This document shows, piece by piece, positions 33,581-35,938 of a DNA stretch of 64,000 nucleotides (position 1 is its first letter; the number at the start of each line of letters is the position of its first letter). The notes beneath the pieces were generated by a model. That model was given only the letters and a program-made list of their open reading frames with translations, did no database searches and was not told where the DNA came from. The stretch spans positions 6,980-70,979 of the forward strand of contig CALALQ010000307.1 in NCBI GenBank assembly GCA_937925595.1. Reading direction: 5' to 3'. Made by a program: the position numbers and the translations under genes. This stretch comes from an uncultured Demequina sp. (lineage in GTDB: Bacteria; Actinomycetota; Actinomycetes; Actinomycetales; Demequinaceae).

Positions 33581-34423
33581 ATGTCCGACACCCCCGCGGC
33601 GGATGCCGCAGAAGAGTTCAACGAGGAACTCGACGCTGAGATCTGGGCCGACGAGCCCGCCGGTCCCAGCCTGCTCGCGAAGATGGGCGCCGAGGTTGTC
33701 GGCACGTTCGTCCTCGTTCTGCTCGGCGTGGGGGCCGCTCTGCTGAGCGGCCTCGGCAACAACGGCAGCCTCACGGTGGGCCTGTCGTTTGGTGTGGCCG
33801 TCATCATCGGCGCGACGGCCTTCGCCGCCGTGTCTGGCGCACACTTCAACCCCGCCGTGACCGTTGGCCTGTGGCTTGCGGGACGGTTCCCTGGCCGCGA
33901 CGTGGTTCCTTTCATCCTCGCTCAGGTGATCGGCGGTCTGGTCGCCGGAACCGCGCTGTACACGGTGCTGGCCACCGGCGAGGGACTCGACGGCGAGCGC
34001 GCCAGGGCGCTGCTTCAGGGGGCATCCAACGGGTTCGGCGAACACTCGCCCACCGCGGAGCAGGGAGTGAACTTCGGCTTGGGCGCGGGCCTGCTGGTCG
34101 AGGCAGTCGCAACCGCCCTGCTCGTGCTGACGATCCTCTCTGCGACCTCACGCCTTGCGGCTAAGGCCGCCGCGCCATTCACGATCGGTCTCGCGCTGGC
34201 GATCCTGGTGATCTTCGCGATTCCGTTCACCAACGCGGGCCTCAACCCCGCTCGCTCCACCGCGAGTGCGCTCTTCGGCGGCGACTGGGCGCTGAGCCAG
34301 CTGTGGCTGTTCTGGTTGGCACCGATCGTCGGAGCCGCGATCGTGGGACTGCTCTACCGCGTGTTCGCTCCCGCGGAGGAGGAGCTCGAGATCGTCGAGA
34401 CCATCGCGGTCATCGAGGACTAG
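33581..34423 (+). CDS. aqpZ: Aquaporin Z-like MIP channel
   Basis: A 280-residue major-intrinsic-protein channel with six membrane helices and both half-helix NPA boxes ([10 protein letters not shown] and [10 protein letters not shown]). The following Arg in the second box is the selectivity-filter residue. An acidic ~35-residue N-terminal tail ([16 protein letters not shown]) and acidic C-terminus are additions to the core. ATG 33581 has AGGAGGA upstream; the longer in-frame start at 33545 has none. The filter seems water-type rather than glycerol-type, but this call is tentative. A strong terminator follows 15 nt after the stop. Confidence 0.9.
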
Positions 34424-34472: not shown

Positions 34473-34530
34473 TGCTCTCTGCGCCGTGGGCATCGGCGCA
34501 TGCCGTCCACGTTCGCGCCCTCAAACGCCC

Positions 34531-34590
34531 TGCGTGTCGGTTGCGCCCAGATTCTCGGGAGTCAAGCGCGCTGGATGTCGATTGCGGTCG
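34531..34590 (+). repeat. Left 60-bp inverted-repeat arm of the AbiEi/DUF559 unit
   Basis: This arm is the inverse complement of 35577-35636 with 55 of 60 positions identical; all five differences are transitions. Weaker similarity (9/13) continues outward to 34518. The arm contains two related sub-repeats 41 bp apart, with TGTCGGTTGCG at 34535-34545 and TGTCGATTGCG at 34576-34586, each preceded by a CGCSCTG-like block. A degraded third echo (CAGTTCTCGGGAATCA, 34625-34640) lies nearer the gene. Confidence 0.9.
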
Positions 34591-34670
34591 AGACGACCGT
34601 CGCATCGAAGGTCTCGCGCTGTCCACAGTTCTCGGGAATCACAACCACGGGCGCGCTCGCTGCGGTACGC

Positions 34671-35576
34671 ATGACTCCCATGGCCCCCGACGCGACCGAC
34701 CTCGCAGCGACGCTCGGTCGCGACCCTCGCGGCTGGACAGTCGCGGAGCTCGAGCACAGGTGGTCGCGCGCCGCGCTGCGCGCAGCCGTCGCCGCGGGCA
34801 GCGTCGCGAGGGTCGCCCGGGGGATCTACGCTGCAACCGAGCACGCATCCTCATTTGCGGTGCGGGCCCACGTCGCGCACCTTGTGTGCGGGCCACGCTC
34901 CGTCGTGATTGGCCCTGCTGCGGCAGCCTTCCACGGCCTGTGTGACATGCCGGAAGACGTCGTGGTTGCGGCGCCTCATGGCCTCAAGGTCGCCCACCCT
35001 GACTGGCTCACCGTTCGCAGGATGCGCGCCCAAGTCCCGTCTCTCATGGCCGGCCATGTTCCCATCGCGATCCCCCCGTGGGCTGCAGTGACGGCGTACG
35101 CGCTCGTGTCTCCCGCACGTCGCGACAGTGTCATCTACCGAGTGGTCCAGTCTCGTCTGGCACAGCCAGCAGATCTCTTCGAGGTGGCGTCCGCAATGCC
35201 ACGCCTGCGCGGCCGGAGGCACTTCGAAGCAGTGGTCGGCGCCGCCGTTCAGGGTTCCGAGAGCCACCTGGAAACCGTGGGCCTTCGCCAGGTGTTCAAC
35301 ACGAAGGACTTCGCCGACTTTCTCCGGCAGCATCGTGTCCGGACCCCGGCCGGCAACATGCGCCTCGACATGTACCACCCGGCATCACGTACCGCCGTCG
35401 AGCTCGATGGAGCGGGAACACACGGCAAGCCCGAAGCTCAGTTGAGCGACATGCGGCGTGACGCGGAACTGGCGCGCGTGGGGATCTTCACGCTTCGGCT
35501 CAGTTCGGTGGACGTGTTCCGCCACAAGGAGTGGTGTCGGCAGGTGGTGCTGGAGACTGTCGCGGCGCGCATGTGA
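34671..35576 (+). CDS. AbiEi-antitoxin-like / DUF559 endonuclease-domain protein
   Basis: A 301-residue protein. The N-terminal ~60 residues resemble the AbiEi-type winged-helix region (WTVAELEHRWSRAALRAAV ... ARGIYA). The C-terminal third is a DUF559 (Vsr-like PDDEXK) nuclease domain. Its candidate active-site residues are Glu198 (GSESHLE), Asp233 (RLDMYH) and Glu244-x-Asp246 (AVELDGAGTH). ATG 34671 was chosen as the first start past the repeats; 34680 is possible. No partner toxin gene is adjacent. It is enclosed by 60-bp inverted repeats, the right one starting at the base after its stop. It sits between the aquaporin gene and the DUF3017-purH operon, which looks like an insertion. Confidence 0.8.
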   Translation: MTPMAPDATDLAATLGRDPRGWTVAELEHRWSRAALRAAVAAGSVARVARGIYAATEHASSFAVRAHVAHLVCGPRSVVIGPAAAAFHGLCDMPEDVVVAAPHGLKVAHPDWLTVRRMRAQVPSLMAGHVPIAIPPWAAVTAYALVSPARRDSVIYRVVQSRLAQPADLFEVASAMPRLRGRRHFEAVVGAAVQGSESHLETVGLRQVFNTKDFADFLRQHRVRTPAGNMRLDMYHPASRTAVELDGAGTHGKPEAQLSDMRRDAELARVGIFTLRLSSVDVFRHKEWCRQVVLETVAARM

Positions 35577-35636
35577 CGACCGCAATCGACATCCAGCGCG
35601 CTTGACCCTCGGGAATCTGGGCGTAATCGACACGCA
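35577..35636 (-). repeat. Right 60-bp inverted-repeat arm of the AbiEi/DUF559 unit
   Basis: Inverse complement of 34531-34590 (55/60). It begins immediately after the TGA of the nuclease-like gene. Two sub-repeats (GCAATCGACA at 35582-35591 and GTAATCGACA at 35623-35632, each followed by CAGCGCGCT) are 41 bp apart. Similarity fades by about 35650, just short of the 3' end of the DUF3017 gene. Confidence 0.9.
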
Positions 35637-35671
35637 GCGCGCTGAAGGGTTCAGGCAGAGTTGCTGCGGCT

Positions 35672-35938
35672 TCAGCCCAGGGGCGTGGTCATGCCCAACA
35701 GTCCCAGGCCAGCGCCCAGCACGCCAAGGACCGCTACATCGACGGCCCGCGAGCGCACGGCGAAGGCCCGACTGGGAGGCGCGACCATGCGCGCCACGGC
35801 TCCCGCGATCGCGAAGGCCGCGAACAGCAGCACCGCCGCCCGCGCATTGACGAGTACGCCGAACAGCACGATGGCGACGCCAGCGAGCGGCACGATGAGT
35901 GCCACGCGCGGCAGCGAGCTGCGTCCTGGTTCGGCCAT
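35672..35938 (-). CDS. DUF3017 small membrane protein
   Basis: An 88-residue protein with three hydrophobic segments and no catalytic motif, matching the actinobacterial DUF3017 family that usually lies directly after purH. Its ATG overlaps the purH stop by one base (TGATG), indicating translational coupling. Function unknown; conserved linkage to purine synthesis is the only clue. It is the last gene of the purN-purH-DUF3017 unit. Confidence 0.8.
   Translation of the reverse strand: MAEPGRSSLPRVALIVPLAGVAIVLFGVLVNARAAVLLFAAFAIAGAVARMVAPPSRAFAVRSRAVDVAVLGVLGAGLGLLGMTTPLG

Follow-up and report, generated by a model that had tools for sequence, protein, structure and literature searches.

A nuclease gene between mirror-image arms in a Demequina genome and its candidate REP/RAYT-like repeat system

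We analysed a 64,000-nucleotide stretch of the genome of an uncultured Demequina sp. (assembly GCA_937925595.1, contig CALALQ010000307.1), referred to here as the window. Between an aquaporin gene and a DUF3017 gene adjoining purH it carries a gene for an AbiEi-DUF559 nuclease that is enclosed by two inverted arms. We found that this gene belongs to a widespread family with many repeat-flanked members, and that the arms of some relatives are scattered through their genomes without any gene; the larger finding is this family together with its dispersed cognate arms. We regard it as probable that they form a system working like REP/RAYT elements (REPtrons), in which a self-recognising nuclease gene is accompanied by its own dispersed recognition repeats, with an unrelated enzyme at its centre. 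A gene that has its own mark on either side, with the mark multiplying both in cis and in trans, would be most simply accounted for by a nuclease recognising the arms and bringing about their copying.

In such a system the AbiEi-like part would bind the arms, each of which consists of two half-sites that here are direct and 41 bp, or about four helical turns, apart and in a sister subfamily are palindromic. The Vsr/EDxHD-type nuclease domain would nick or cut the arm-bound DNA, and repair or transposition would then copy arms, singly or as convergent pairs, to other intergenic places; we infer that the window's own genome would contain such copies too. The gene would be the autonomous member and the arms its small non-autonomous followers. 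It would remain mostly stationary at a few chromosomal loci, being flipped or replaced there by other alleles, and would occasionally settle at a new locus, such as the window's place between aquaporin and DUF3017.

Inverted arms of the window unit and its homologs

The first-pass annotation of the window, made from its letters and open reading frames, reported that 34531-34590 matches the inverse complement of 35577-35636 at 55 of 60 positions with transitions as the only differences, that the right arm begins immediately past the stop codon, and that each arm holds two sub-repeats 41 bp apart. Recomputation returned the same values (5/5 mismatches were transitions), and the stop codon and half-sites lie as described (Table 1). 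A repeat search widened the arms to 73 nt, with four additional mismatches, two of which are transversions. Window-type arms are made of two direct half-sites of ~22 bp and not of a single palindrome. With up to 3 mismatches allowed, the 22-nt half-site pattern had exactly 4 matches in the 64 kb, where shuffles give an expectation of 0.03. Directly upstream of the nuclease gene, TTCTCGGGAATCA duplicates the stretch that separates both left half-sites.

Flank complementarity was scored by comparing the upstream flank of a gene with the reverse complement of its downstream flank. The window unit scored 55, and the maximum among 558 ordinary genes, taken from stretches of two related genomes, was 17. 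Since none of these genes reached 18, the inverted repeats of the window are confirmed as real and above chance. A first control, which set the upstream flank of one gene against the downstream flank of another, was rejected; it gave scores of at least 20 in 24/510 cases, some of them very high. Ordinary genes were chosen instead because the high values go with shared, oppositely oriented host flanks. Same-direction flank repeats, put through the same test, scored at least 20 in 14 of 102 loci.

Homologs of the window protein were found in 46 of 47 Demequinaceae genomes, with 1-7 copies in each. The main sample comprised 101 homolog loci and the window (102 in total), and 18 further loci were added later. 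Repeat-flanked DUF559 genes do occur elsewhere: 61 of the 101 homologs scored at least 20 and 43 at least 25, while 11 of the 18 later homologs scored at least 24 (shuffles, at most 16). Many of the 102 loci are related, so the lag and arm counts are not independent events; the best direct-repeat lag was 41 bp in 26 and 42 bp in 8 of them upstream of the gene, and 41 bp in 17 and 42 bp in 2 downstream. Within gene bodies, used as a control, lag 41 fell outside the eight commonest lags. A sister subfamily has palindromic arms, which are clear by eye in four loci (L309, L316, L317, L325). Automatic sorting of arm types left 16/61 unclear and placed two members of locus 0, a shared host locus, among the palindromes. 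In other actinobacterial genomes, profile matches were obtained in 9 of 15; 17 of 25 loci were analysable and seven of these scored at least 20 (Kribbella, Pseudactinotalea with two, Arachnia, Modestobacter, Terrabacter and Nocardioides).

Two further observations concern the architecture of individual members. One locus (L145, genome G022) has eight half-site matches around a single gene, in both orientations, rather than four. Runs of CCCGCATCGTCC/CCCGCATCGGCC-like units adjoin some elements (L088, L090, L105, L319).

Arm sequence was found to follow the protein. The two arms of one element had a median score of 29, and arms of different elements had a median of 9-10 when the proteins were less than 50% identical and of ~50 when they were more than 70% identical, the latter from 11 pairs only. 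Arm similarity rose with protein identity (Spearman 0.22, with 0/500 permutations as high), also among the 24 elements at locus 0, a single host locus (Spearman 0.41). The first-pass annotation had proposed that the protein recognises its own ends. This has indirect support, in that arm sequence tracks the protein and cognate arms are dispersed (see below).

Four of the five differences in the 60-nt core of the window arms are indeed G-U compatible, as had been pointed out, and this could hint at a structural RNA in which the arms pair in a gene-spanning transcript and act on RNA stability. The hint did not extend to the family: strong-arm members showed G-U-compatible and A.C transitions equally often (127 versus 142, beside 432 transversions), and arms were found unpaired as well as on both sides of genes with no relation to the family. 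The RNA hairpin was rejected for want of a G-U bias, and we consider a structural RNA hardly credible as an explanation.

Dispersed arms and the turnover of element loci

We scanned nine genomes with half-site patterns of elements of the family, using the reversed pattern as a control. The locus-0 half-site of genome G007 gave 48 matches at 3 mismatches; the numbers for other genomes were 24 in G023, 13 in G027, 13 in G010, 10 in G045 and 17 in Arachnia (G060), with 0 control matches in every case. Across all 47 genomes the G007 pattern was present 42 times in G007, 18 times in its sister G021 (2 mismatches), once in G034 and in none of the other 44 (reversed control 0). The G023 pattern was present in six of the 47 (G023 14, G019 6, G027 5, G014 4, G024 1, G038 1). 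Dispersal is clear in seven of the nine scanned genomes, and since the counts are limited to the carrier clade, the mark is clade-specific.

The G007 arms were characterised further. At 20 loci, 29 of 31 arms had a second half-site 41-42 bp away (up to 6 mismatches). A total of 36 arms was counted: 2 belong to the element, 14 form seven close convergent pairs, 6 form three wider convergent brackets, 1 stands in a same-direction pair and 13 are solo, so that 34 arms are gene-less. Among arms less than 300 bp apart there were 7 convergent pairs, 1 same-direction pair and no divergent pair. By crude gene calls, 0/30 arm placements lay inside predicted genes and 10 of 20 arm loci lay between converging genes. 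In three loci (L238, L239, L224) convergent arms enclose whole unrelated genes: the wide bracket of L238 encloses an smc gene (SMC model 1e-270), and the enclosed genes also include a short-chain dehydrogenase-like one (by eye) and an unnamed open reading frame. Of the solo arms, 11/13 were on the minus contig strand and the other 2 on the plus; replication direction could be the cause of this bias.

Sister genomes differ in their arms through gain or loss. We compared 400-kb stretches of G007 and G021, of which 339 kb aligned at 87%. Two arm units were shared (G007 positions 1218986 and 1244539), two were present in G007 only (1300805 and 1554628) and one in G021 only; this last consists of two arms between converging genes, and G007 has a short spacer there. 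The locus-0 proteins of the two genomes shared 49.7% identity, where ordinary proteins had a median of 91.8% (n=276; 2.2% of them below 60%), and at two other element loci the identities were 86% and 92%.

The element loci comprise 8 shared host places and 12 single ones, with that of the window among the single. At the largest shared locus, which lies between clpX and valS (names taken from L119 only), the two orientations were found 20 and 17 times; the remaining shared loci showed ratios of 15/1 and 9/1 or one direction only. By parsimony on the protein tree there were 5 orientation changes, at least 2 of them forced by well supported branches.

A search of genome contigs with the window protein confirmed no close relative, and relatives were found through purH instead. 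DUF3017 was found in 43 of the 47 Demequinaceae genomes; 30 loci were inspected, the other 13 genomes standing outside the count. None of the 30 had a nuclease gene beside DUF3017, and the aquaporin was close by in 27, though not as a base-exact empty site. The window unit is therefore lineage-restricted at the aquaporin/DUF3017 place. The genome with the closest DUF3017 (G040, 74%) has a different palindromic repeat in this interval (L182:1780-1860), with similar copies at two further places (L312 and L313) and no nuclease gene adjoining. This palindrome was rejected as an element mark: it had 5 matches versus 2 for the reversed control and was absent beside the six G040 homologs inspected. 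The outcome that would have refuted the first-pass reading was not observed, as the interval lacks the gene in all 30 loci and similar repeat-flanked genes are common elsewhere. Its idea of a mobile unit calls for revision: most members stay long at a few shared loci, where they are sometimes flipped, and multiplication is clearest for the arms and not for the gene.

These data bear on two other explanations. One is a classical minimal transposon, in which gene and terminal inverted repeats move jointly by means of a TnsA-like PD-(D/E)XK transposase and gene-less arm pairs are miniature inverted-repeat transposable elements (MITEs). Terminal inverted repeats, a feature of insertion sequences and MITEs, are present in the window unit and in 61/101 homologs. 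We nevertheless judge this explanation unlikely, as no target-site duplication was seen, solo arms are numerous (13 of the 34 gene-less G007 arms), the spacers of arm pairs are unrelated, most genes remain at the 8 shared loci, and no DDE, HUH or serine/tyrosine recombinase domain was found among the family matches. The other is a homing-type selfish gene, whose nuclease would cut element-less alleles or sites and be copied in by repair, with the arms as recognition sites and homology tract. Because the arms would double as homology tract, it would be understandable that genes at fixed loci are flipped and alleles replaced. The target of a homing gene is usually interrupted by that gene, however, and the nuclease gene here lies between two whole inverted sites; simple homing also predicts no dispersed gene-less arms, and the orientation changes are few. 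We think homing decidedly unlikely.

Several results weigh against the REPtron-like reading as well. A clear inverted repeat was lacking in 40 of the 101 homologs, and the correlation of arm with protein is modest and partly due to shared ancestry. Two scanned genomes had three sites each (G018, where two were its own arms, and G024; controls 0). The window half-site gave 39 scattered matches in 23 of the 47 genomes, at most 4 in each, with 8 for the reversed control. The spacers of two-arm units were mutually unlike by eye, so that the units are not simple copies. In G021 the locus-0 gene (L170) had no recognisable arms, though this genome has 18 dispersed sites. The gene stays long at shared loci, unlike an active transposon. 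No target-site duplication was found in the outer flanks of the window arms (at most 4 matching bases); between G007 and G021 the intergenic DNA is too diverged to show one, and no clean case of a base-exact empty site was found among the relatives' loci.

The nuclease gene and its neighbourhood

The protein had been annotated as an AbiEi-like winged helix followed by a PDDEXK (DUF559) domain with plausible catalytic residues, and our searches agree. Most of them used the translation of 34683-35576 (297 aa, without Met), and residue numbers follow this version. Pfam matches, each under the curated cut-off, were MTES_1575 (6e-7), AbiEi_4 (4.4e-5) and DUF559 (6.1e-4). The fold of the catalytic domain is of the Vsr type, in agreement with EDxHD homing endonucleases, and a passage of a HEPN survey names MTES_1575 as a Vsr-type REase (restriction endonuclease; PMC3710099). 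With meaningful scores, Pfam, NCBIfam and PADLOC returned only AbiEi and DUF559/MTES_1575-type relatives and no HUH (TnpA-REP) tyrosine nuclease. The nuclease domain has seven residues (E197, D229, E240, D242, H247, D256, R259) that were identical in 102/102 family members, suggesting that catalysis has been preserved even as the protein changed over most of its length and its sites changed too.

Table 1. Positions of the repeat-flanked unit and its edges in the window
Feature	Position	Strand	Basis or remark
Aquaporin, host gene, left edge of occupied interval	33581..34423	+	aquaporin Z model 5.6e-64, below cut-off
Left (upstream) arm, inverted repeat	34518..34590	+	repeat search; 73 nt; 64/73 vs right arm
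Half-site 1, outer left	34524..34545	+	pattern search; 3 mismatches to consensus
Half-site 2, inner left	34565..34586	+	pattern search; 0 mismatches; 41 bp from half-site 1
Third partial copy of inter-half-site stretch, TTCTCGGGAATCA	34629..34641	+	direct repeat with 34552-34564
AbiEi-DUF559 (Vsr-like) nuclease gene	34680..35576	+	298 aa, best start ATG 34680
AbiEi-antitoxin-like part, winged helix and second domain	34686..35249	+	model residues 2-189
Vsr/EDxHD-type PD-(D/E)XK nuclease domain	35256..35573	+	model residues 192-297
Right (downstream) arm, inverted repeat	35577..35649	-	first base after stop codon (stop ends 35576)
Half-site, inner right	35581..35602	-	pattern search; 0 mismatches
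Half-site, outer right	35622..35643	-	pattern search; 0 mismatches; 41 bp farther outward
Host gene adjoining purH, right edge of occupied interval	35672..35938	-	neighbour of aquaporin in 27/30 relatives' loci

The protein could also be a repressor or global regulator, with the flanking arms as operators for looping or autoregulation and the dispersed arms as its regulon. AbiEi is described as autoregulating through repeats in its own promoter (PMC7319586); in our data the upstream arm overlaps the promoter region, and many genes have one adjoining arm. Repression needs no mirror-image arm past the stop codon, however, and the seven nuclease residues are invariant while the remainder diverges fast. 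Sister clades differ in site sequence, 10 of the 20 G007 arm loci inspected lie between converging genes and away from promoters, and the spacing is unlike the 3 bp gap of AbiEi and the 13 bp gap of Rv2827c (PMC7319586). A regulatory role is improbable on this evidence.

The statement that the gene has no toxin partner was upheld. A PADLOC scan of four neighbours (aquaporin, isocitrate dehydrogenase, DUF3017 and purH) had zero matches: no AbiEii nucleotidyltransferase toxin and no partner DNA methyltransferase was found among these four genes of the window. A toxin-antitoxin system or defence island was rejected, as the four neighbours include no partner. Carriage by a plasmid or phage was rejected too, tblastn with the window protein against plasmid and phage collections having given zero matches. 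The gene at 35672..35938 had no NCBIfam match, and its DUF3017 label is that of the first-pass annotation. The window's purH is 75% identical to that of the Demequina-like metagenome-assembled genome HGW-Actinobacteria-4, and its isocitrate dehydrogenase is 92% identical to that of Demequina salsinemoris.

Implications and comparison with known systems

The interpretation originally given to the unit is partly supported as a whole, its idea being right in outline. The description of the unit as new agrees with the open-access literature searched, which gave no matching account: full-text searches combining DUF559 or very-short-patch-repair endonuclease with inverted repeats found none (subscription journals lay outside their scope), and no DUF559 paper, judged by title or start of the abstract, appears to treat a repeat-flanked DUF559 system. 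We tentatively advance a wider claim, which we see as a real possibility short of probable. An AbiEi-Vsr nuclease may read paired half-sites, spread arms as non-autonomous repeats, change its recognition together with them from lineage to lineage and drive inversion and replacement of its own gene at fixed loci, and so represent a new class of genome parasite; it may be the non-HUH counterpart of REP/RAYT in several actinobacterial families, hidden under 'endonuclease domain-containing protein' labels. If the REPtron-like reading is right, AbiEi-DUF559 or 'very-short-patch-repair endonuclease' genes, to which no role has been assigned, would power another REP-like system that arose independently of the first. 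A protein-DNA recognition code would be readable from sequence, every gene having its own four sites alongside, and dozens of natural protein/site pairs would be at hand for the study of specificity change in a winged-helix nuclease. The origin of small dispersed repeats in high-GC genomes would also become directly testable.

Four known systems resemble ours in part. The AbiE system is a type IV toxin-antitoxin, and according to PMC7319586 a comparable N-terminal part of AbiEi and Rv2827c can bind ~23-bp repeats. Our gene differs from these in having no AbiEii toxin among the four scanned neighbours, in the additional nuclease domain of its protein, and in its sites, which flank the gene on both sides as mirror images with half-sites 41 bp apart. 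Compared with I-Bth0305I (EDxHD) and Vsr, it is free-standing between two intact, inverted, recognition-like arms, outside any intron or intein, and the neighbourhood gene list shows no adjoining cytosine methylase. Compared with TnsA of Tn7, it adjoins neither TnsB nor TnsC nor any further gene for transposition, and the domain order differs, the winged helix being N-terminal here.

The closest likeness in working is to REPtrons. REP doublets occur in extragenic space as inverted repeats and are linked to a RAYT gene that has repeats at its flanks (PMC3116915), and repeat and RAYT enzyme co-evolve (PMC8266576). Both systems have a nuclease gene between its own cognate repeats; in both, the repeats are scattered through intergenic DNA, either alone or as inverted doublets, here in the genomes of relatives; and in both, repeat and protein change jointly between lineages. 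The enzyme here is of the PD-(D/E)XK/Vsr type with an AbiEi-like part, whereas RAYT is a HUH tyrosine nuclease. The repeat of the window subfamily is a direct half-site pair 41 bp apart and that of REP a hairpin, with copy numbers in the tens here and in the hundreds for REP. Because the enzyme differs, the system lies outside the RAYT family, although it appears to be REPtron-like in working.
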